The position numbers and the translations under genes are program-made. Shown one piece after another: positions 26,091 through 64,000 of a stretch of 64,000 nt of DNA (its first letter is position 1; each line of letters starts with the position of its first letter). The DNA lies in contig NZ_JAENHL010000007.1 in the NCBI RefSeq assembly GCF_016595235.1, positions 1,022,419-1,086,418 of the forward strand, in the 5' to 3' direction. Below the pieces are notes generated by a model. The model made no database searches. It saw only the letters and a program-made list of their open reading frames with translations, and was not told the DNA's origin. This DNA comes from Taklimakanibacter albus (GTDB taxonomy: Bacteria > Pseudomonadota > Alphaproteobacteria > Rhizobiales > Aestuariivirgaceae).

Positions 26091-26293
26091 TTCCCCTCGC
26101 CCCTCGAAGAGGGGAGAGGGAGGGGCCCAATGCATCGGCGTTGGGAGGGTGAAGGGCATCCCTGTTACCCTTCTTTCCAGCTGACGCGCGATGTATTCGG
26201 CATTTGTTGCAGCAAAGAGACCGGGTGCCCCTCACCTTCCCATTGCTTCGCAATGGGCCCCTCCCTCTCCCCGCTCGCGCGGGGCGAGGTGAA
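26091..26293. repeat. Inverted-repeat (MITE/BIME-like) element, copy A
   Basis: Two 69-base imperfect inverted arms (26091-26159 and 26225-26293) share GGGGAGAGGGAGGGGCCCA and then a small hairpin and GGTGA-GGG. They flank 65 unrelated bases. Each arm also folds on itself. The plan (C-rich start, GGGAGAGGG, short hairpin, GTGAGGG end) is that of the elements at 56660 and 61183, though the sequence differs. It fills the gap between kdsD and nfeD and holds no credible gene. Confidence 0.75.
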
Positions 26294-54565: not shown

Positions 54566-55006
54566 ATGGCCGATCTCGCCGTCTATGCCGGCCTGTTCCT
54601 TACCGCTTTCGTGGCGGCGACGATCCTGCCGATGCAATCGGAGGCGGCGCTTGTCGGGCTTCTCCTCCTCGACGCGCAGCCGGCCTGGCTGCTCGTCACC
54701 GTCGCCAGTATCGGCAATGTGCTGGGCTCCGTCGTCAACTGGCTGCTCGGCCGCTTCATCGAGCGTTATCGCGATCGCCGCTGGTTCCCGGTGAGGCCGG
54801 CGGCGCTCGATCGCGCCGGCGCCTGGTATCGCCGTTATGGCAAATGGTCTCTGCTCCTCAGCTGGCTGCCCATTATCGGCGATCCGCTGACCGTTGCCGC
54901 GGGTGTTCTGCGCGAGCCCTTCCCGGTCTTTCTGTTCCTCGTCGCGCTCGCCAAGATCGGCCGTTACCTCGTGCTGACGATCGCCACACTGGGCCTCGCC
55001 GGATAA
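54566..55006 (+). CDS. YqaA family (DedA-like) membrane protein
   Basis: A 146-residue membrane protein with segments near 5-25, 40-62 and 95-140. GSVVNWLLGRFIERYRDRRWF and WLPIIGDPLTVAAGVLR are family motifs of YqaA (SNARE-associated/VTT fold). It starts 3 bases after the exporter stop, so both share a transcript. Whether it aids metal export or membrane-lipid movement is unknown. Confidence 0.9.
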   Translation: MADLAVYAGLFLTAFVAATILPMQSEAALVGLLLLDAQPAWLLVTVASIGNVLGSVVNWLLGRFIERYRDRRWFPVRPAALDRAGAWYRRYGKWSLLLSWLPIIGDPLTVAAGVLREPFPVFLFLVALAKIGRYLVLTIATLGLAG

Positions 55007-55023
55007 GTTAGATTACTAACATA
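55007..55023. promoter_or_regulatory. Distal operator copy of the RpiR-linked operon
   Basis: GTTAGATTACTAACATA: GTTAG and CTAAC are perfect inverted arms. It matches the proximal copy in 14 of 17 positions and lies exactly 42 bases (about four DNA turns) upstream of it. Confidence 0.6.
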
Positions 55024-55038
55024 ATTTCCGCGAGCCGA

Positions 55039-55067
55039 TTGACACGATGTTAGAAGAATAACATAGT
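55039..55067 (+). promoter_or_regulatory. Promoter with proximal operator of the oligopeptide-type ABC operon
   Basis: TTGACA (55039-55044), 17 bases and CATAGT (55062-55067) form the promoter. Between and over the -10 lies the dyad ATGTTA-GAAGAA-TAACAT (55047-55064), the proximal operator (GTTAGAAGAATAACATA from 55049). Binding here would block RNA polymerase. Confidence 0.65.
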
Positions 55068-55118
55068 GGCTGCGCCTAAGGGGCATGAAGCCCCAAACAA
55101 TAAACATCGAGGAACGCC

Positions 55119-56639
55119 ATGTTCATCCCGAAAAGCCTGTTCACCGGCGCGATCCTGCTCGGCCTCGCCGGCGCCCTCTCTTTCAGCGCTTCCGCCGAAG
55201 CGATCCGCATCGTCTCGCCCTATCCGACCACCACGCTCGACCCGATGCGCTCGGCCGGCGCCGGCAATATCGAGACCTACGGGCTTCTCTATTCGCGCCT
55301 CCTTCGCCGCAACACCGAGACGGGCGCGCTCGAAGCGGGCCTCGCCGAGAGCTGGGAGGCCTCAGCCGACGGTCTCACCTACACGTTCAAGCTACGCGAT
55401 GCGAAATTCTCCGACGGGTCGGCCATCACCGCCGATGACGTCGCTTTCAGCCTCGAGCGCGTGCGCACCGACAAGCGCTCGGCCTATCCGGGTCCGCTCG
55501 GCGCCGTCGACAGCGTCGCCGCCTCGGATGCCAAGACCGTCGTGGTGAAGCTCAAATCGCCCTTCGCGCCCTTCCTCGGCAATGTCGAGATCTGGAACAT
55601 GGGCATCGTATCGAAGAAGGATGTCGAAGCGCGCGGCGAAGAGAAGGCCTTCACCGAGAAGCCGCTGACCTCGGGGCCCTATGTGGTCAAGGAATGGCGC
55701 GCCAATGAGGCCCTCACCCTCGACCCCAATCCGAATTACTGGCGCACCGGATATCCCAAGAGCCCCGACAGCGTGGTGCTGCAGGAAGTCGCCGCCGCCG
55801 ATGCGCGTATCTCAATGCTGAAGGCGGGCGAGACCGACGCGGTGCGCTCGGTGCCGTGGTCGCAGGTCGCGACCATGAAGGCGGAAGAGAATATCGATAT
55901 GCGCCTCGAGCCCTCGACGACCATCTGGATCACGCTCCTCAATCATCGCCGCGAGCCCTTCTCCAACGCCAAGGCGCGCCTCGCTGCAGCACAAGCGATC
56001 GACAACAAGATGCTGACCCAGGCGGTGACGCAGGGCTTCGCCACCGCCGCCAATACGACGCTGCCGGGCGCGGTCGACTTCCACGACAAGTCTTATCCCG
56101 GCATCGCCTATGATCCCGTCAAGGCCAAGGCGCTGCTCGAGGAATCAGGCATGGTCGGCAAGGAAGTGAAGATCCTGGTGGCCGCCGACCCGGCGCAGCA
56201 GCAGATGGCGCTGCTGCTCCAGGCGCAGTGGCAGGCGATCGGCCTCAAGCCCAAGATCGAGACCGTCGATGGCGGCGCCTGGTGGGAAGCGATCCCCAAG
56301 GGCGAGTATGACGCGACCCCCAATTGGTGGTTCAACGAGACGCCCGATCCCGATCTCGCGGTGCGCTGGGCAGTCTGCGGCTCCTGCGGCTCGCATTCCT
56401 ATTACACTTATTACGAAAACAAGAAGGTGGACGAGCTGGTCGACGCCGGCACGCGCGAGATGGACCCCGGCAAGCGCGCCGAGATCTACAAGGAAATCCA
56501 GGCGATCTCGACCGGAGAAGTGGCGCAGATCCCGCTCTTCTACGCGCCCAACACGGTGGCCTACAGCAAGAAGCTGAAGGGCCTCAAGCTGACGCCGTCG
56601 CTGCAATGGACACTGGAAGAAACGACGATCGAGAAGTGA
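55119..56639 (+). CDS. ABC transporter solute-binding protein, oligopeptide (family 5) type
   Basis: A 506-residue periplasmic protein. Signal peptide MFIPKSLFTGAILLGLAGAL... with cleavage after ASAEA. SBP_bac_5 domain with TLDPMRSAGAGNIETYGLLYSRL near residue 38, LAESWEASADGLTYTFKLRDAKFSDG (in parts), and the family segment ISMLKAGETDA. These proteins bind di- and oligopeptides, but also opines, sugars or nickel complexes. The first gene of an operon ending in an RpiR regulator with tandem operators upstream. Confidence 0.93.
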   Translation: MFIPKSLFTGAILLGLAGALSFSASAEAIRIVSPYPTTTLDPMRSAGAGNIETYGLLYSRLLRRNTETGALEAGLAESWEASADGLTYTFKLRDAKFSDGSAITADDVAFSLERVRTDKRSAYPGPLGAVDSVAASDAKTVVVKLKSPFAPFLGNVEIWNMGIVSKKDVEARGEEKAFTEKPLTSGPYVVKEWRANEALTLDPNPNYWRTGYPKSPDSVVLQEVAAADARISMLKAGETDAVRSVPWSQVATMKAEENIDMRLEPSTTIWITLLNHRREPFSNAKARLAAAQAIDNKMLTQAVTQGFATAANTTLPGAVDFHDKSYPGIAYDPVKAKALLEESGMVGKEVKILVAADPAQQQMALLLQAQWQAIGLKPKIETVDGGAWWEAIPKGEYDATPNWWFNETPDPDLAVRWAVCGSCGSHSYYTYYENKKVDELVDAGTREMDPGKRAEIYKEIQAISTGEVAQIPLFYAPNTVAYSKKLKGLKLTPSLQWTLEETTIEK

Positions 56640-56659
56640 TGCGCGTTTACTGACAAAAC

Positions 56660-56826
56660 ATTCCCCTTCTCCCGCGCGGCACGCGTGGGAGAAGGTGGCC
56701 GAAGGCCGGATGAGGGCTCTTTCTCGAAACAAACGAGACTTTCGACGGCTCTCATCTCGACGAACGAAGAGCCCTCACCCGCCCTTCGGGCACCCTCTCC
56801 CATCCTGCGGACGGGAGAGGGGGAAT
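56660..56826. repeat. Inverted-repeat (MITE/BIME-like) element, copy B (no gene inside)
   Basis: Arms 56660-56720 and 56768-56826 are about 60-base imperfect inverted repeats running TTCCCC...GGGAGAGGGTG-hairpin-GAGGGCTC, facing inward with a 47-base spacer. Each arm folds into two hairpins (for example GGCC-GAA-GGCC and CCC-TTCG-GGG). The same pair of arms brackets the DUF559 gene at 61183-61709, so this is the empty form of that element. It splits the binding-protein gene from the permease gene of the operon. Confidence 0.8.
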
Positions 56827-56836
56827 ATTCGGATAA

Positions 56837-57802
56837 ATGATCGACAGCCCAAATGGATCTCCCTTGTCGCATCTCCGTTCCATTCTGAACCGCCTGCTGC
56901 AGCTGATCCCGGTGCTCATCGGCATCAGCGTCATCTCGTTTCTGCTCTTGCGGCTGGCGCCGGGCGATCCGGTGCGGCTTCTCGTCGGCGACCGGGCGAG
57001 CCCGGAGACGATCGCGGCGGTGCGCCAGCAATATGGTCTCGATCTGCCGTTGCCGCTGCAATTCCTGCGCTATGTATCCAATGTGCTGCAGGGCGATCTC
57101 GGCCTCTCCTTGCGCTTCCAGCGCCCGGTCGCCGAGCTCATCGGACAGTTCATGGGCCCGACCTTGTTCCTCGCCGCTTATGTCGTCGTCCTCACCGTGC
57201 CGCCAACTCTGCTCCTGGCGGTCGCCGCCGCGAAACGTCCCGGCGGCTTCATCGATCAATTGATCCGCTTCCTCGGCATCATGGGCCTCGCCATTCCAGT
57301 CTTCTGGCTCGGCATCATGATGGCGCGGTTCTTTGGCGCCGAGCTCGGCTGGTTTCCGGTCTCAGGCTACGGCCAGACTTTCACCGCGCATCTGCATCAC
57401 CTGTTTCTGCCGGCGGTTTCGATTTCGATCTGGCTCATCCCGGTGCTGACCCAGAGCCTGCGTCAGGCCCTCATCGAAAAATCGGCAGCGGACTTCATCA
57501 CCGCGGCGCGCGCCCAAGGGGCGAGCGAGCGTGAGATCTTCTGGCGCCATATGCTGCCCAATGCCATCCTGCCGACCTTCAATCTCCTGGGCGTGATGGT
57601 CGCCCTCATCATCGGCAGCACCGTGATCGTCGAGACCGTCTATGCGGTCCCAGGGCTCGGGCGGCTGCTGATCGCTGCTCTGATGGGACGTGATTATTAT
57701 GTCGTGCAGGGTCTCACCCTCGTCTTTGCGCTGGTCACCGTGGCCATCACCCTCATCGTCGATATCATCTCGACCTTCATCGATCCCAGGGTGGAGCTGT
57801 GA
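56837..57802 (+). CDS. ABC permease 1, DppB/OppB-type
   Basis: A 321-residue permease with six spans; N-terminal LLQLIPVLIGISVISFLLLRL (in parts) and LAPGDPVRLL are the DppB hallmarks, and the EAA loop is DFITAARAQGASEREIFWRHMLPNA (in parts) near residue 217. It follows the repeat element by 10 bases and overlaps the next permease by 4 bases. It forms the channel with that gene's product. Confidence 0.94.
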   Translation: MIDSPNGSPLSHLRSILNRLLQLIPVLIGISVISFLLLRLAPGDPVRLLVGDRASPETIAAVRQQYGLDLPLPLQFLRYVSNVLQGDLGLSLRFQRPVAELIGQFMGPTLFLAAYVVVLTVPPTLLLAVAAAKRPGGFIDQLIRFLGIMGLAIPVFWLGIMMARFFGAELGWFPVSGYGQTFTAHLHHLFLPAVSISIWLIPVLTQSLRQALIEKSAADFITAARAQGASEREIFWRHMLPNAILPTFNLLGVMVALIIGSTVIVETVYAVPGLGRLLIAALMGRDYYVVQGLTLVFALVTVAITLIVDIISTFIDPRVEL

Positions 57803-58650
57803 CGGCGGCGGAAAATCAAGTGGCCGCGCCCGACCGGCGGAACTGGCGCCTCGTCGGCAGCGGCTTCGTCGCTCTGCTCATTCTCGGCGGCTGGATTTTC
57901 GCCGCGCTCTTCGCGCCCTGGGTCGCGCCCTATGATCCCGACGCCATCGACATGTTGACCTTGCTGGGCGCCCCCAGCGCCAGCCATTGGTTCGGCACCG
58001 ATCAGGTCGGCCGCGACATCCTCTCGCGTGTCATTTACGGCGCGCGCATCGATCTCCTGATGTGCGCGCTGGGCGTCCTGCCGCCGCTGATCATCGGCAC
58101 CACGGTCGGCCTGCTGTCCGGTTACTTCCGCGGCCTCACCGATCAAGTCTTCATGCGTGTCTACGATATCACCGTCGCTTTTCCCTTCTTCGTCCTCGTG
58201 CTCGCCATCGTCGGCCTCTTGGGCCCGGGTCTCACCAATTACTTCATTGCCCTCGCCATCGTCGGCTGGGTCACCTATGCGCGGCTGGTGCGCGCCGAGG
58301 TGCTGGTGCTGCGCGAGAGCGAATATGTGCTCGCCGCCAAAGTCTTGGGCTTCTCCAAACGCGTCATCCTGCTCAACCATGTGCTGCCCAATGCGCTGTC
58401 GCCCGTCATCACCTATGCGGTGAGCGACGCGGTACTGGTCATGCTGGCAGGCGCCAGCCTCGGCTTCCTCGGCATGGGCGCGCAGCCGCCGACCGCCGAA
58501 TGGGGTGTGATGATCGCCGACGGCCAATCCTTCATCGACCAGGCCTGGTGGATCTGCTTCTTCCCCGGTGCCGCGGCGATCTCACTGGGCCTCGGCCTCG
58601 CTTTTCTCGGCGATGCGCTGGCGCAATTGCGCCGGCCGGTGAGGAGCTGA
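57799..58650 (+). CDS. ABC permease 2, DppC/OppC-type
   Basis: A 283-residue permease starting at GTG in a GTGA overlap. The family N-terminal segment FAPWVAPYDPDAIDMLTLL near residue 38 and HWFGTDQVGRDILSRVIYGARI (in parts) near 60 are typical of DppC, with the EAA loop YVLAAKVLGFSKRVIL near 178. Six spans. The operon continues 2 bases later with the ATPase. Confidence 0.94.
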   Translation: MTAAENQVAAPDRRNWRLVGSGFVALLILGGWIFAALFAPWVAPYDPDAIDMLTLLGAPSASHWFGTDQVGRDILSRVIYGARIDLLMCALGVLPPLIIGTTVGLLSGYFRGLTDQVFMRVYDITVAFPFFVLVLAIVGLLGPGLTNYFIALAIVGWVTYARLVRAEVLVLRESEYVLAAKVLGFSKRVILLNHVLPNALSPVITYAVSDAVLVMLAGASLGFLGMGAQPPTAEWGVMIADGQSFIDQAWWICFFPGAAAISLGLGLAFLGDALAQLRRPVRS

Positions 58651-58652
58651 CC

Positions 58653-60254
58653 ATGGCGCGATTGCTCGAGGTCAAGGATCTCACCGTGCGTTTCGGCGAG
58701 ACGACCGCGGTGCGCAATGTCTCGCTCCGTGTCGATCAGGGCGAGGTGCTCGGCATCGTCGGTGAATCAGGCTCAGGCAAGTCGGTGACCTGCCGGGCCT
58801 TCATGCGCCTCCTGCCGCCTTCCGCCGCGGTCACCGGTGATGTGTCATTCGACGGCCAGTCGATCTCGGCCATGAGCACGCAAGATCTGCGCCGGATCCG
58901 TGGCCGCGATATCGGCATGATCTTCCAGAATCCGGCCTCTCATCTCGATCCCCTGCTGCGCATCGGCGCGCAGATCGCCGAACCGATCCGCCGGCATCTG
59001 GCGACCGGCCAGGCAGCCGCTAACGCCCAGGCGGTGGATCTGCTGCGCCAGGTCGGCATCACCGAGCCGACGCAGCGGGCACAGGCCTACCCTCACGAAT
59101 TCTCCGGCGGCATGAAGCAACGCGCCATGATCGCCACCGCCATCGGCTGCGGACCAAAACTTCTGATCGCTGATGAGCCCACCACCGCCCTCGACGTGAC
59201 CGTCCAGGCGCGCATCCTCGACTTGCTCCGCCATCTCAACCGGAATAATGGTCTCTCGATCGTGCTGATCTCGCATGATCTGGGCGTAATCGCGCAGAAT
59301 TGCAGCCGTATCATCGTGATGCGCCAGGGCGAGATCGTCGAGCAAGGCTCGACCCGTGAAATTATCGAAGCGCCGAAGCATCCCTATACGCGGCTGCTTC
59401 TCGACTCGCAGCCGTCCCGCAGCAAGGCCAGCAGCTCACTTATCTCTTCCGGTTCGACACGGCCTCTGCTCACAGTGAAGAACCTCACCGTCACCTTCCC
59501 GAAGCGGCGTGATCTTGTCAGCCGATTCACGGGCAAAGACACCGAACCCTTCCGGGCGCTCGACAGAGTGAGTCTCACCGTCGAGGCCGGCGAAACGGTC
59601 GGCATTGTGGGCGAGTCCGGTTCAGGCAAGAGCACGCTGGCGCGCGCCATTGTCCGACTCGTAACGCCGGCCGCGGGCGAGATCGTCTTCGACGGCAAAG
59701 AGGCTTCCACTGATGGCGCCTTCCGCCGCGCCGTCCAGATGGTTTTCCAGAACCCTTACGACTCGCTCAATCCCCGCCTCAAGGTGAAGGAAGCGATCGC
59801 CGAGCCGATCCGGCGTCACCGTCTGGCGGAAGGTGCGGAGATCGCGCGGCGCGTCGACGACCTCGCCGACAAGGTCGAATTGCCGCGCGCTTTGCTCGAG
59901 CGTTATCCGAGCCAGCTGTCGGGTGGGCAATGCCAGCGTGCCGGCCTCGCCCGCGCGCTCGCGGTCGAACCGCGTTTTCTCATCGCCGATGAAATCACCT
60001 CGGCGCTCGACGTCACGACCCAGGCGCAGATCCTGAAGCTGCTCGACCGTCTGCGCCGCGAGCGTGGCCTCACCATGCTTTATGTGTCGCATGATCTCTC
60101 GGTGGTGAGCGCCTTCTGCCAGCGTGTCTATGTGTTCAAGGCGGGACGAATCGTGGAAGAAGGTCCGGCGGCCAAGGTCATGCGCGAACCTGCCGATGCC
60201 TATACGAGGGAGCTCGTGCGATCCATTCCGCGGCTCGATGCGATAGAGGACTGA
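58653..60254 (+). CDS. Fused ABC ATPase, DppD-DppF type
   Basis: A 533-residue protein with two ATPase domains in one chain. First (about 1-250): Walker A GESGSGKSV, signature FSGGMKQRAM, Walker B LLIADEPTTALD. Second (about 270-533): Walker A GESGSGKSTL, signature LSGGQCQRAGLARAL with a Cys where Arg or Lys is usual, Walker B FLIADEITSALD (Ile for Pro). This fused form powers importers with one binding protein. Its ATG lies 2 bases after the permease stop and the RpiR start 2 bases after its own. Confidence 0.93.
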   Translation: MARLLEVKDLTVRFGETTAVRNVSLRVDQGEVLGIVGESGSGKSVTCRAFMRLLPPSAAVTGDVSFDGQSISAMSTQDLRRIRGRDIGMIFQNPASHLDPLLRIGAQIAEPIRRHLATGQAAANAQAVDLLRQVGITEPTQRAQAYPHEFSGGMKQRAMIATAIGCGPKLLIADEPTTALDVTVQARILDLLRHLNRNNGLSIVLISHDLGVIAQNCSRIIVMRQGEIVEQGSTREIIEAPKHPYTRLLLDSQPSRSKASSSLISSGSTRPLLTVKNLTVTFPKRRDLVSRFTGKDTEPFRALDRVSLTVEAGETVGIVGESGSGKSTLARAIVRLVTPAAGEIVFDGKEASTDGAFRRAVQMVFQNPYDSLNPRLKVKEAIAEPIRRHRLAEGAEIARRVDDLADKVELPRALLERYPSQLSGGQCQRAGLARALAVEPRFLIADEITSALDVTTQAQILKLLDRLRRERGLTMLYVSHDLSVVSAFCQRVYVFKAGRIVEEGPAAKVMREPADAYTRELVRSIPRLDAIED

Positions 60255-60256
60255 CC

Positions 60257-61156
60257 ATGTCCAGAAGCAAAAAGAACGAACCACGGAACTTCGACCTCAA
60301 GGCGATCCTGGCGCCGCGCCTCGAAAGCCTGTCGCAGTCGGAGCGCGCCCTTGCCACCCACATGCTGAGCAACGAGCATCTGCTGCCCTTCGAGACCGGC
60401 GCGAGCCTCGCCCAGACGACCGGGGTGAGCGAGATGACGGTATCGCGTTTCGTACGCAGCCTGGGCTTTGCGGGCTTGCGCGACTTGAAGGACCGGCTGC
60501 GCGGCAGCGTCCAGACCGATCCCGGCACGGTCGACGACATCCATGACCGTTTCCGGGTGCGCGGCGGCGAGCCCGAAAGCCTGAAGGGCAGCCTCGAGCT
60601 GGAGCTCGATGCGGTGCGCAAGGCCTATGCGTTGGCTGGCTCCGAACTTTGGGCCGAGGCGGTCGATGAGATCGCGCGGCGTGAGACGATTTTCGTCGTC
60701 GGCTTCCAGGCCTCGCAGGGTCTGGCGCTCGATTTCGCCAGCCGGCTGCTTTATGCGAGGCCCGACGTCTTCCATATCGACGACAACACCGGCACCTATA
60801 CCGAGATCCTCACCGCCGATCCGAAGAAGAGCCTGCTCGTCCATGTCGACACTGCGGCCTATGCCACGCGGGGCGTGAAGCTGCTCGACCGGGTCAAACA
60901 GATGGGACTTCCGACCGTGATCGTGACCGACCGGTTCAGCCATTGGGCGGCCGGCTACACGAAATATGTCTTCGAAGGCCATACCCATGTGCAGACCTTC
61001 TTCGACTCGACCGCCGCTTTGAGCGTGCTGCTGAATCTTCTCACCAATGCTGTGGCGACGAGGCTCGGCGCCAAAGCCAAGAAACGCTTCGAGGTCATGC
61101 GCGATCTCGGCCGCCATTTCGACGAATTCGTCCGCGTGCCCAGACCGAAGAAGTGA
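60257..61156 (+). CDS. MurR/RpiR family transcriptional regulator
   Basis: A 299-residue regulator with an N-terminal helix-turn-helix (about 10-85: GVSEMTVSRFVRSLGFAGL) and a C-terminal SIS domain (about 125-255: IFVVGFQASQGLALDFASRL, then KKSLLVHVDT) that binds phosphosugars in relatives. It is the last gene of the importer operon, so it probably senses an imported or derived sugar compound and binds the tandem dyads at 55007-55065. Murein-derived or sugar-peptide ligands fit, but this is conjecture. Confidence 0.92.
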   Translation: MSRSKKNEPRNFDLKAILAPRLESLSQSERALATHMLSNEHLLPFETGASLAQTTGVSEMTVSRFVRSLGFAGLRDLKDRLRGSVQTDPGTVDDIHDRFRVRGGEPESLKGSLELELDAVRKAYALAGSELWAEAVDEIARRETIFVVGFQASQGLALDFASRLLYARPDVFHIDDNTGTYTEILTADPKKSLLVHVDTAAYATRGVKLLDRVKQMGLPTVIVTDRFSHWAAGYTKYVFEGHTHVQTFFDSTAALSVLLNLLTNAVATRLGAKAKKRFEVMRDLGRHFDEFVRVPRPKK

Positions 61157-61182
61157 GACCTCTTGCGTTGGCGCATGAAGGA

Positions 61183-61709
61183 TTTTCCCCCTCGCCCGTG
61201 CGCAGCATGGGAGAGGGTGGCCGAAGGCCGGGTGAGGGCTCATTGTTCCACCTGAGCTTTGTGGCAGAATTGAACGCAAGATGGGAATTACCCAATCAAA
61301 GCGCCTCGATCAGGCGCGTCGCCTTCGCCGCGTTCAAACTCCGGCTGAAGCACGACTGTGGTCAGGCCTACGTGACCGAAGACTCCAGAACCACAAGTTC
61401 ACTCGACAATATCCGATCGGCCCGTATACAGTGGACTTTCTCTGCCGCGAGGCTCGCCTCGTCGTTGAGGTCGATGGCGTAACGCATTCGACCGACGAAG
61501 AAATCGCCTATGACGATCGACGATCAGCTTATCTCGAACTACAAGGCTATCGGATTCTTCGCATATTGAACGATGATATCTATCGCCGTTTTGATGACGT
61601 CATGGATATGATTTTGCTGGCACTCGAAGGCACAGTTTCTCACGCCCAGTAAGAGCCCTCACCCGCCCTTCGGGCACCCTCTCCCATCCTTCGGACGGGA
61701 GAGGGGAAA
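61183..61709. mobile_element. Inverted-repeat element carrying a DUF559 gene, copy C
   Basis: Arms 61183-61241 and 61653-61709 are about 58-base inverted repeats (TTTCCCC...GGGAGAGGGTG...CGGGTGAGGGCTC). Where they differ the changes often keep pairing within each arm (GGCCGAAGGCC against GCCCGAAGGGC). The DUF559 stop ends at 61652 and the right arm begins at 61653. The arms match copy B at 56660-56826, which lacks the gene. No target duplication is evident. Confidence 0.75.
61281..61652 (+). CDS. DUF559 domain protein (putative endonuclease)
   Basis: A 123-residue protein of the DUF559 (Vsr-related, PD-(D/E)XK-like) fold: RRVQTPAEARLWSGLRDRRL, KFTRQYPIGPYTVDFLC, ARLVVEVDG and GYRILRI. In this fold the D in VDF and the E-V-D residues are candidate metal ligands. 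No ribosome binding site is clear. It lies exactly between the inverted repeats of element copy C, suggesting that it belongs to the element. Its GC and codon use seem less biased than the flanks. Confidence 0.85.
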   Translation: MGITQSKRLDQARRLRRVQTPAEARLWSGLRDRRLQNHKFTRQYPIGPYTVDFLCREARLVVEVDGVTHSTDEEIAYDDRRSAYLELQGYRILRILNDDIYRRFDDVMDMILLALEGTVSHAQ

Positions 61710-61730
61710 CACTGCAAGAGTGCCGCTCTC

Positions 61731-62201
61731 TTATTCATCCTCGAAGATCGTCAGCTTGCCGCAATCGCTGTCGGCGACGAAGATCGCCATGATCTCCGCG
61801 GGCTCGGTCGGGCTCGGATTGGCGACGTAGGTATGCAGCGTGCCCGGCGGCTCGAACCAGCTGCCGCCCGGACCGAATGTGCCGACGGGGTCGCTGTTCA
61901 ACTGCGACTGCAGCGTGCCTTTGAGCACATAGGCGGTGACCGAGCCGGCATGACGATGGCTCGGCACCACGACGCCCGGAGGAAATTCGACGAGCGTCGT
62001 GGTGATGGATTTGCCCGGCACATTGGGCAGCTTCTCGCAGGATATCACCTGCTCGCGCGCGCGTGAGGGCGCCGCACTCTCTTCCACGCCCGTGCTCATC
62101 GCGATCGGACCATGACGGGAGAGCGCCGCCAAGCCCGCAATGACGATGAGGCCGGAAGCCAGCATCGCCAGTGCGGCGGGGTGGATGGCGCGCCCGGTCA
62201 T
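61731..62201 (-). CDS. Cupin domain protein with N-terminal membrane anchor
   Basis: A 156-residue protein. One hydrophobic segment (about 8-30) is followed by a cupin barrel (about 60-150) with the metal motif PPGVVVPSHRHAGSVTAYVLKG (in parts; first His pair) and FGPGGSWFEPPGTLHTY (second motif, last His). It is probably periplasmic. It overlaps the AhpD-like gene by 4 bases, so the two are coupled; such pairs occur under MocR/LysR regulators. Its substrate is unknown. Confidence 0.88.
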   Translation of the reverse strand: MTGRAIHPAALAMLASGLIVIAGLAALSRHGPIAMSTGVEESAAPSRAREQVISCEKLPNVPGKSITTTLVEFPPGVVVPSHRHAGSVTAYVLKGTLQSQLNSDPVGTFGPGGSWFEPPGTLHTYVANPSPTEPAEIMAIFVADSDCGKLTIFEDE

Positions 62202-62647
62202 TTGGCGGCCTCGGGCGTCGAGCGGAAGCCGATGGCGATGCGGTTGTAGAGATTCATGAGGCCGATCACGATGGTGAGATCGGCCACTTCCTTTTCGGTG
62301 AACGCGGCCGCCACCGCTGCATAGTCGGCATCGGGAATGCCGGTCTCGGCCACACGCGTCACCGTTTCGGCCCAGGCGAGAGCCGCCTGCTCACGCGCGT
62401 CGAAGAGCTTGCCGCCTTCGCGCCACGCCGGCACCAGCACCAGCTTCGCCACGTCGAGTCCGTGCTTCAGCAGGTCACGCGAATGCATGTCGATGCAATA
62501 GGCGCAGCCATTGATCTGCGAGACGCGCAGATTGACGAGATCGATGAGGGTCTGCGGCAGGCCGCTTTTGGCGACATAGTCGCGCGTGGCCCTGATGGCG
62601 GCCATGCCGGCGGGAGCGGCTTTCATATAATCGAGGCGGAGGGTCAT
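62198..62647 (-). CDS. AhpD-like carboxymuconolactone decarboxylase family protein
   Basis: A 149-residue all-helical protein with the active-site motif CAYCIDMHSRD (Cys48, Cys51, His55), as in the alkylhydroperoxidase AhpD. It probably reduces peroxides. AGGA lies 9 bases before the ATG at 62647 and 1 base before one at 62656, so 62647 is preferred. It is divergent from a MocR regulator that probably controls it. Confidence 0.92.
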   Translation of the reverse strand: MTLRLDYMKAAPAGMAAIRATRDYVAKSGLPQTLIDLVNLRVSQINGCAYCIDMHSRDLLKHGLDVAKLVLVPAWREGGKLFDAREQAALAWAETVTRVAETGIPDADYAAVAAAFTEKEVADLTIVIGLMNLYNRIAIGFRSTPEAAK

Positions 62648-62748
62648 GAGTGTCATTCCTGATGAGCTGTAATGTCGAGCTTGAGATGCGCTCTGGCAGG
62701 GCCAATAAAAAGCACCAAGAATGGCATAAACTGCTGTACCATCCGACC

Positions 62749-64000
62749 ATGACCGATCCTTTCCTCCTGAGCCTCGACCGGAGCAGCGGCGCGCCGCTCA
62801 CCCGCCAGATCCGGGATGGCATAGCGCTCGCCATCGGCGAAGGCCGGCTCAAGCCCGGTGCGCGCCTGCCGTCCTGGCGCGACCTCGCCGCCCAGCTCGG
62901 TGTGGCGCGCGGTACCGTGAGAGCGGCTTATGACGGCCTCGTCGATGCGCAGCTCATCGTCACCTCGGGCTCGGCCGGAACGCATGTCGCCGACTACCTG
63001 CCGGCCAAGCCGCCGGTTGAGAAAATCGAACCAACGGAGCGGTTCCCCGGATTGTTCGATCACTTCTCCACCGCACCCCTGCCCTTTCAGATGGGCGTGC
63101 CGGCGCAGGACGAGTTCCCGTTCAAGCTGTGGTCGCGCCTGATGGCGCGGGCGGCGCGCGAGACCGCCATCCTGCCCGCGAGTTATCCCGATCCCAAGGG
63201 TGAGCCGGAGCTGCGCCAGGAGATCGCCGCCTATCTCGCCATCGCGCGCGGCATCCGGGCGGCGCCGGCGCAGATCTTCATCACCAACGGCTTTTCCGGC
63301 GGATTGGGCTTCGTGCTGCGCGCGCTGGCGCTCGAGGGCAAGACCGTGTGGATGGAGGAGCCCGGCTATCCACTGTCGCGCCAGGCGCTGGAATTGGCCG
63401 GCGCTACCATCGTGCCGGTGCGCACCGATCAGGAGGGCCTCATCGTCGAAGACGGCATCCGTCAGGCGCCTGATGCGCAGGCGGCTCTGGTGACTCCCGA
63501 CCAGCAGGCGCCGCTCGGCATGACCTTGTCGCTGGCGCGAAGGCGCGCTTTGCTCGACTGGGCGATGCGCGCGAATGCCTGGATCATCGAAGACGATTAT
63601 CTGAGCGAGTTGCAGTTGAAGGGCCGTGCCACGCCGGCCCTCGCCGCCGTCGATCAGGCGGGGCGCGTCATCCATATCGGCACCTTCAGCAAGACGATCA
63701 GCCCGGCTTTGCGCCTGGGCTTCATCGTGGCGCCGGCCGAGCTCAGCTCACATTTCAAAGACGTCGCATCGGCACTGTCGCCGGCACCCGCTCCGCAGAT
63801 CCAGCGCGCGGTCACCCTCTTCATGCGCGAGGGCCACTATATGCGCCATCTGCGCCGCATGAAGCGGCTCTATGCCGCCCGCCGCGATGTTCTGCGCGCC
63901 GCAATCAAAGGCGCGCTTGGCGGCACCGAAGCGATGGCGGGATTGGGCCTTCTGCTGCACCTGCCGGAAGGCACCGACGACCGGCGCATCGCCCGCGAGG
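62749..64000 (+). CDS. MocR/PdxR family regulator (GntR HTH plus aminotransferase domain), partial
   Basis: The first 417 residues lie in the window; the gene runs off the right edge. An N-terminal GntR winged helix (about 10-78: LPSWRDLAAQLGVARGTVRAAYDGL in parts) is joined to a fold-type I aminotransferase-like domain (about 115-417) with PGYPLSRQALE and GTFSKTISPALRLGF, whose Lys (about 315) would bind PLP. Divergent AhpD-family genes are frequent MocR targets. The intergenic region 62648-62748 holds both promoters. Confidence 0.93.
   Translation, partial: MTDPFLLSLDRSSGAPLTRQIRDGIALAIGEGRLKPGARLPSWRDLAAQLGVARGTVRAAYDGLVDAQLIVTSGSAGTHVADYLPAKPPVEKIEPTERFPGLFDHFSTAPLPFQMGVPAQDEFPFKLWSRLMARAARETAILPASYPDPKGEPELRQEIAAYLAIARGIRAAPAQIFITNGFSGGLGFVLRALALEGKTVWMEEPGYPLSRQALELAGATIVPVRTDQEGLIVEDGIRQAPDAQAALVTPDQQAPLGMTLSLARRRALLDWAMRANAWIIEDDYLSELQLKGRATPALAAVDQAGRVIHIGTFSKTISPALRLGFIVAPAELSSHFKDVASALSPAPAPQIQRAVTLFMREGHYMRHLRRMKRLYAARRDVLRAAIKGALGGTEAMAGLGLLLHLPEGTDDRRIARE

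Follow-up and report, generated by a model that had tools for sequence, protein, structure and literature searches.

A DUF559 gene of Taklimakanibacter albus is probably the motor of a mobile element resembling the REPIN/RAYT systems. It lies between two inverted, structured arms in the window, by which we mean the whole analysed stretch of 64,000 nucleotides, and the same arms recur in the window as a doublet that encloses no gene. Comparison between genomes shows that such units are mobile; the role of DUF559 itself is inferred. The features of the unit and of the empty doublet are as follows.

61185-61241, unstranded: left inverted arm, from the inverted-repeat search; 57 nt, 88% complementary to 61653-61709
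61189-61217, plus strand: outer hairpin of the left arm, from the DNA fold; one G-A mismatch, 12 of 200 shuffles as good
61219-61229, plus strand: linker hairpin GGCCGAAGGCC of the left arm, from the DNA fold
61230-61238, plus strand: inward tail GGGTGAGGG of the left arm, from the sequence and the mirror rule; near-mirror of the stem purine strand GGGAGAGGG
61281-61652, plus strand: DUF559 gene, 123 aa; ORF, Pfam E 2.5e-34, AlphaFold2 mean pLDDT 86.8
61653-61709, unstranded: right inverted arm, from the inverted-repeat search; its first base directly follows the stop codon
61677-61705, minus strand: outer hairpin of the right arm, from the DNA fold
61665-61675, minus strand: self-complementary linker GCCCGAAGGGC of the right arm, from the sequence; the predicted fold shifts its register into the tail
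61656-61664, minus strand: inward tail GGGTGAGGG of the right arm, from the sequence
56660-56826, unstranded: REPIN-like empty doublet whose arms belong to the family of the unit; inner parts 56686-56721 and 56767-56802, 45 nt between them
56687-56716, minus strand, and 56772-56801, plus strand: matches of the arm pattern in the empty doublet, from the pattern search

The open reading frame, assigned by Pfam to PF04480 (DUF559), ends with a TAA codon at 61650-61652. The initial annotation had described arms of about 58 bases around it, the right one starting at the base after the stop codon, and the inverted-repeat search confirmed this, with a spacing of 411 nt between the arms. Apart from copies of these arms, the longest inverted pair in 55000-64000 was 30 nt long and 73% complementary. 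Each arm of the unit and of the empty doublet combines three parts: the outer hairpin, a linker complementary to itself, and a tail, GGRTGAGGG, that points inward. In centroid folds, three of the four window arms (unit and doublet) outperformed nearly all shuffled sequences (z -3.1 to -4.0), and the left arm of the DUF559 unit, with its mismatched stem, reached z -1.67. In the fold predicted for the right arms, linker pairing is offset in register and extends into the tail. The suggestion that differences between arms preserve pairing held for the linker (GGCC/GGCC versus GCCC/GGGC) but not for the left stem with its G-A mismatch. A search for RNA families in 56400-62000 placed none on the arms and returned one match, sR45 at 57220-57256 (E 0.27), below the gathering score; a search for defence systems gave weak matches alone (HEase and DpdF, E 6e-6 to 4e-4). 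Directly outside the arms of the unit, at 61160-61166 and 61714-61720, is a 7-nt inverted match, CTCTTGC / GCAAGAG, perhaps what is left of outer ends such as the G002 units described below possess, or chance.

The empty doublet at 56660-56826, previously noted as a near-identical pair of arms, is real, with a spacer of 45 rather than 47 nt. It is one of many. The own genome contains 143 arms of one pattern, none of the reversed pattern, and 37 arms of another type, here called L002 type. Among the 100 listed arms of the 143, 74 sit in close pairs, making 37 pairs that are all in minus-plus order with the tails inward; the other 26 have no partner of that pattern. Spacers of these 37 listed pairs measure 21-95 nt, with a single exception of 417 nt; no other of these spacers could accommodate a gene, and this one contains the DUF559 gene of the window. 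The arms of L002 type form 13 close pairs with tails inward and two with tails outward, and in the related genome G023 six of nine close pairs are in outward order; inward order is therefore not universal. The two arms of a doublet also differ in their linkers. Of 28 doublets of the window's family, 27 join an arm whose linker is GGCC to one whose linker is GCCC, an arrangement which, we would guess, avoids a long perfect palindrome. By reading, 11 of the 13 inward pairs of L002 type in the own genome combine an arm with a TCGCGCG linker and an arm with a TCCGCCC linker, and on this reading each end of such a doublet has a set type of its own.

A third arm family, CCCTCACCY-TCCC-hairpin-...CCCTCTCCC, forms a doublet in the window at 26112-26155 (minus strand) and 26229-26271 (plus strand). 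It recurs in the own genome, yet beside none of its three DUF559 genes. In the sister genome G002, arms like those of this family stand on both sides of a DUF559 gene (L020). The third-family repeats may have outlived their enzyme.

Bracketing by arms is characteristic of DUF559 genes well beyond the window. All three DUF559 genes of the own genome lie between inverted hairpin arms, which are of two families. We examined 181 loci: 3 from the own genome, 68 from relatives, 80 from named genomes, and 30 from a class-wide sample of 190 genomes. For the own genome and relatives, 71 of 86 DUF559 places were taken, with 15 short, contig-edge or low-scoring ones omitted. The named-genome loci were the best 80 of 566 confirmed stretches, so that this set is biased towards relatives of the query. 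A DUF559 match was present in 180 of the 181 loci, and removal of 7 with cut flanks left 173, a number that includes some duplication (at least L088/L116 and L100/L113 are the same places, L153/L202 apparently identical). Inverted repeats bracketed the gene in 139 of the 173 loci at a score of at least 30, and in 131 at a score of at least 40. At the higher threshold, the fractions were 3/3 in the own genome, 51/65 in relatives, 61/76 in named genomes and 16/29 in the class-wide sample. Controls gave far lower values: displaced windows of the same loci reached a score of 30 in 8 of 682 cases and 40 in none, other ORFs of the same loci in 6 and 3 of 322 cases, and shuffled pairs of flanks in 2 and 0 of 865 cases.

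Among the 76 named loci, bracketing was found in Alphaproteobacteria (44/53), Gammaproteobacteria (6/8), Betaproteobacteria (4/4), Melainabacteria (2/2), Chloroflexota (2/2), Pseudomonadota without class (1/2), Thermodesulfobacteriota (1/1) and one unplaced record (1/1), and was missing from the single loci of Hydrogenophilia, Myxococcota and Nitrospirota; many of these loci are from MAGs, in which single records could be binning errors. The bracketing of DUF559 by arms extends over several phyla. At a score of at least 40, 42 of the 173 loci were unbracketed; a loose pattern, used without a control, found arm-like sequences on neither side of 12 of them, on one side of 28 and on both sides of 2. 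A further 14 units were drawn from 55 plasmid-collection records with a match. Six were bracketed (Sinorhizobium, Deinococcus, Azospirillum lipoferum, Sphingomonas, Qipengyuania and Sphingobium) and eight were not (E. coli, Neisseria, Synechocystis, Geobacillus, Shinella, Methylobacterium, another Azospirillum and another Sinorhizobium). The tails of the 262 arms of bracketed units pointed inward in 176 cases and outward in 15, with 71 beyond judgement.

Several of these loci showed further peculiarities. The DUF559 gene of E. coli, ycjD (L223, KE47), has CCCTCACCCCAACCCTCTCCC-type repeats on one side, after its stop codon (just after 2309), and a 41-bp stretch of this locus (2525-2565) matches elsewhere in another E. 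coli genome. Most of the ycjD query is held by 3361 of 5426 E. coli genomes. We considered ycjD for an empty-site test at population scale and rejected it; in the three strains lacking ycjD that were opened, efflux genes follow sapF. In Deinococcus (L229) and Sphingobium (L268), DUF559 units lie within degradation clusters (hpa and acyl-CoA carboxylase, respectively) and occupy the opposite strand. Two further Sphingobium plasmids lack both DUF559 and the neighbouring hypothetical gene, and there the two carboxylase genes directly follow one another. Two units of the sister genome G001 (L026 and L081) are nested in a wider inverted pair, CAGGACTGTCCGGGGAA / TTCCCCGGACAGYCCTG, of another repeat.

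Comparison of sister genomes indicated that the unit moves as a whole. G002 carries three units (L077, L079 and L084) at unrelated sites, with DUF559 domains that are pairwise 97-98% identical. Some 40 nt to the outside of the left hairpin, homology between them begins at CATATGAATT (TATGAATT in L084); on the right it stops at an inverted copy of this end (degraded in L079), and the flanks beyond are without evident homology. Two of these units are 604 and 608 bp long. The ends are rare in G002: if up to two mismatches are allowed they occur at 6 places, and at 12 if three are allowed, and the six consist of five in the three units and one in an empty doublet (L237). This doublet has the outermost 14 nt or so of the unit ends on both sides. 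In their left flanks, L084 and L079, and less clearly L077, directly adjoin a further GC-rich hairpin, which might point to a preference of the G002 units for hairpins or terminators as targets.

Sites without the unit complement this picture. In the sister genome G003, the flanks of the window unit (79-88% identical to those of the window) are 10 nt apart and no arm is present. G001 likewise lacks the window unit; its site is taken up by other genes, about 4.9 kb in all, with an empty doublet among them. Both flanks were found in these two genomes, and neither has DUF559 without arms at this locus, an arrangement that the initial annotation had named as evidence against its proposal. At the site of L077, the flanks are about 400 nt apart in G000, G001 and G003, without the arm pattern, compared with about 1.46 kb in G002, which carries other extra DNA there besides the unit. 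Only the right flank of the L084 site was found, in G000 and G001 (by listing). The flanks were too diverged or rearranged to define a target-site duplication or an exact junction, and at the plasmid sites of Sphingobium and Azospirillum, where a target duplication was also sought, differences exceed the unit (L269-L272, by annotation tables). Considering the copied units of G002 and the sister sites that lack both components, the DUF559 gene and its arms appear to come and go together, and mobility of the unit is shown by comparison.

The number of arms follows the presence of DUF559. Among 59 relatives, DUF559 was present in 18 of the 21 that carry 5 arms or more but in just 13 of the 38 below that number (p 0.0003), and in all 11 with at least 20 arms; the DUF559 count takes in three weak or fragmentary matches (G026, G034 and G037). 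The three relatives with 5-19 arms and no DUF559 are G036, G039 and G040. The Spearman correlation of arm number over the 59 relatives was 0.68 with DUF559 (0.60 without the own genus, n=55) and 0.34 with Y1 transposases. The latter were present in 8 of 21 arm-bearing relatives versus 4 of 38 others (p 0.018), a weaker link than that of DUF559. PF01797, the Y1 family of the RAYTs, had no match in the own genome and none in 7 of the 11 relatives with at least 20 arms. A RAYT as the mover in the own genome was rejected on this ground.

Agreement between DUF559 and arm sequence held for recent copies and not for the stem class once each species was represented by one gene. In 69 within-genome pairs, DUF559 identity correlated with arm similarity (rho 0.42; 2 of 2000 permutations did as well); below 70% identity the correlation disappeared (rho -0.05, n=55), and it thus comes from recent copies. 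On the DUF559 tree, stem class required 35 changes versus 63 in shuffled data (0/300) and linker class 21 versus 33.7 (0/300). With one gene per species, the values were 22 versus 23.7 for the stem class (46/300) and 10 versus 14.6 for the linker class (6/300). In these sequence comparisons the co-movement of DUF559 and arms is clear, and co-evolution is only partly supported.

The DUF559 protein is predicted to have a nuclease fold. In a Foldseek search with the AlphaFold2 model, the nearest structures were 3hrl (N. gonorrhoeae NGO0050) and I-Bth0305I (3r3p; E 1.7e-5, target TM 0.80), followed by Vsr (1vsr and 1cw0, target TM about 0.5) among others. By sequence, the match to I-Bth0305I was weak (E 0.015), and Pfam matches at E <= 0.001 were confined to DUF559 and MTES_1575, with no Vsr family. 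Residues E23, D52, E63, D65 and H69 are invariant across 58 aligned DUF559 sequences. The dN/dS ratio between copies was 0.05-0.10 in 6 of 8 pairs, the other two being saturated, and from these ratios DUF559 is judged to be under purifying selection between copies. Pfam still names DUF559 a domain of unknown function. To our knowledge, no enzyme of DUF559 type has been found to move DNA in such a fashion, and in the open-access papers that we searched, which take in neither preprints nor most subscription journals, we found no description of DUF559 between palindromic or inverted repeats and no experiment on the mobility of such arms or on catalysis at them.

The arms obey a mirror rule. The search pattern left one base in the tail and one in the stem free to vary. 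In the 100 listed arms (of 143) of the own genome, the variable tail base was always the same as the mirrored stem base (59 C/C, 41 T/T, none mixed). The listed arms of five other genomes (G015, G023, G027, G030 and G033, with the rows of G019 excluded) gave 96 T/T, 28 C/C and one mixed case, in G030, among 125, and loci outside the genus gave 42 C/C, 22 T/T and none mixed among 64 distinct sequences. Since 19 of 28 doublets of the window's family combine arms of different subtype, the coupling between tail and stem lies inside each arm. Watson-Crick pairing of the tail with the 5' strand of its own stem was considered and rejected, as by reading it fails in the T/T subtype.

Arms of other sequence were compared in the same respect. 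Of the 262 arms of bracketed units, 51 had no scorable hairpin. Among 175 distinct arms with asymmetric stems, the tail fitted a mirror of the purine strand better than a direct repeat in 98 cases, worse in 23 and equally in 54; counted by distinct purine strand (71), the mirror was better in 41, worse in 13 and equal in 17. The mean mirror match was 0.823 versus 0.733 with tails shuffled among arms (0/1000), values that the choice of the best window favours and that common descent can explain in part; the mean direct match was 0.745 versus 0.729 (also 0/1000). Where the mirror match was 75% or more (148 of 171 arms), G stood opposite G in 1009 of 1038 positions, and A stood opposite A in 171 and opposite T in 111 of 291 positions. 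The facings G-G, A-A and A-T are allowed triads of the purine-motif triplex. The inner tail of an arm, as judged from these alignments, mirrors the purine strand of its own stem in the way that such a triplex would require; a G-quadruplex is a possible alternative structure.

The closest known parallel is the REP/RAYT system. According to the available text of PMC2817692 and PMC3116915, a RAYT gene lies between two inverted palindromic repeats, the repeats are also dispersed as inverted doublets, and their number goes with the presence of the gene. The DUF559 gene likewise lies between inverted REP-like repeats that are dispersed as inverted doublets, with a number that tracks DUF559 among relatives. 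The initial annotation had proposed precisely this layout with a nuclease in place of a RAYT, and it is upheld by bracketing above controls, the copied units, the ends of L237 and the empty orthologous site. It had also named arms found mostly without DUF559 as evidence against the proposal. Taken literally this is the case, 36 of the 37 listed close pairs being empty, but the same is true of REPIN/RAYT systems, and we therefore do not count the gene-less majority as a refutation. Differences are evident as well. The enzyme of the window unit is DUF559 and not a Y1 HuH protein (PF01797), and the window's arms lack GTAG and CGTC where the hairpin has its foot; the right arm has CGTC on the minus strand inside the stem. 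In the part of PMC3733652 available, the CGTC tag of REPs is often TGTC or CCTC, and REP stems have A/T pairs; our arms contain CCTC within the stem and lack such A/T pairs. Finally, DUF559 units can be near-identical in several copies, such as the three of G002, whereas RAYTs are described as single-copy and apparently unable to move themselves (PMC3116915, in the text available).

Other systems share single traits with the unit. Like I-Bth0305I, DUF559 is a small single nuclease, of similar predicted fold, for which self-spreading is plausible; I-Bth0305I lies in a mobile intron according to its record name, whereas the DUF559 unit is intergenic, with structured inverted ends and gene-less derivatives. 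Vsr endonuclease is related in fold by prediction, and DUF559 is outside its sequence family at E <= 0.001. Insertion sequences with MITE derivatives likewise combine gene-bearing units with short forms that lack the gene and share their outermost ends, and the DUF559 units at unrelated G002 sites have such common inverted ends (the right one degraded in one of three); they differ in that the DUF559 unit contains no known transposase and no target duplication was found. RIME1 is a small palindromic repeat of rhizobia. Together with Bru-RS of Brucella it represents intergenic palindromic elements in related bacteria, which we liken to the arms by description alone. Bru-RS is listed with a length of 118 in PMC2267715, the available text of which names no enzyme for it.

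We favour, as the probable account, a mobile element of about 0.53-0.61 kb, whose sole gene would encode a DUF559 nuclease of PD-(D/E)XK type, similar to I-Bth0305I and Vsr, and whose ends would be the two inverted structured arms. The short doublets without a gene would be non-autonomous derivatives of this unit, as REPINs are of RAYTs and MITEs of insertion sequences. DUF559 may recognize the folded arms by outer hairpin, linker and mirror tail and nick DNA in their immediate vicinity or in the arms themselves; replication or repair by the host would then copy the unit, or a short doublet in trans, to an intergenic site. An unlikely alternative is that the arms are moved by another enzyme or by host processes, with DUF559 a passenger or useful cargo. 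The arm-bearing genomes without DUF559 (G036, G039 and G040), the predominance of gene-less doublets among listed pairs and the weak enrichment of Y1 transposases with arms would fit this, as would the host repair role that the available text of PMC12907096 proposes for the DUF559 protein of Caulobacter. Yet DUF559 is the sole gene inside the 37 listed close pairs, its association with arms spans phyla and arm sequences, it is strongly conserved between copies, and PF01797 is absent from the own genome and from most of the arm-rich relatives. It is also rather improbable that DUF559 is an independent endonuclease gene of homing type which inserts itself into doublets that were there first, and for which the arms would be landing sites and not ends. 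I-Bth0305I is among the nearest solved folds to the model, the gene occupies the spacer position, and doublets outnumber units among the listed pairs, all as expected of such an invader. However, the outer ends of the three recent G002 units occur at just six places (at most two mismatches), compared with 174 arms of one pattern in that genome, and this rarity implies a joint movement of gene, arms and ends. In G003, moreover, the orthologous site has no arms in which such a gene could have landed.

We give little credence to the idea that DUF559 is a host gene of very-short-patch-repair type and the arms merely terminators or ordinary intergenic repeats. Gonococcal Vsr enzymes, with or without DUF559, nick T:G mismatches and are stimulated by MutL (PMC6116569, in the text available); VsrA of Caulobacter (CCNA_02930) contains a DUF559 domain and is needed for the SOS response of cells without the ScmA methyltransferase (PMC12907096, likewise); and ycjD has an arm-like repeat on one side alone. 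This idea leaves aside that other ORFs of the same loci were bracketed in only 3 of 322 cases and that units with common ends stand at several unrelated sites. Chance, or a side effect of repeat-rich genomes, can be rejected almost outright: arms are abundant, with 143 of one pattern in the own genome, but no displaced window (0/682) and no shuffled flank pair (0/865) reached a score of 40.

A bolder extension of the mobile-element reading, possible but in our estimate somewhat short of probable, is that the units represent a new class of bacterial transposable element, present in several phyla, in which a PD-(D/E)XK nuclease (DUF559), the sole enzyme, reads arms that fold, by way of the mirror tail, as a hairpin with a third strand (purine-motif triplex or G-quadruplex). 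If true, this would explain a large part of the alphaproteobacterial CCCTCACCC...CCCTCTCCC palindromic repeats, and the mirror rule yields a direct structural prediction. The commonest setting of DUF559 among the sampled loci is apparently undescribed in the open literature. If our reading is right, an enzyme family would gain a role and a large class of intergenic repeats a mover, and the kind of relation seen between RAYTs and REPINs would have evolved on at least two occasions, each with a nuclease unrelated to the other. The layout itself has its precedent in REP/RAYT; DUF559 as the motor, if proven, would make this a separate class of mobile element.
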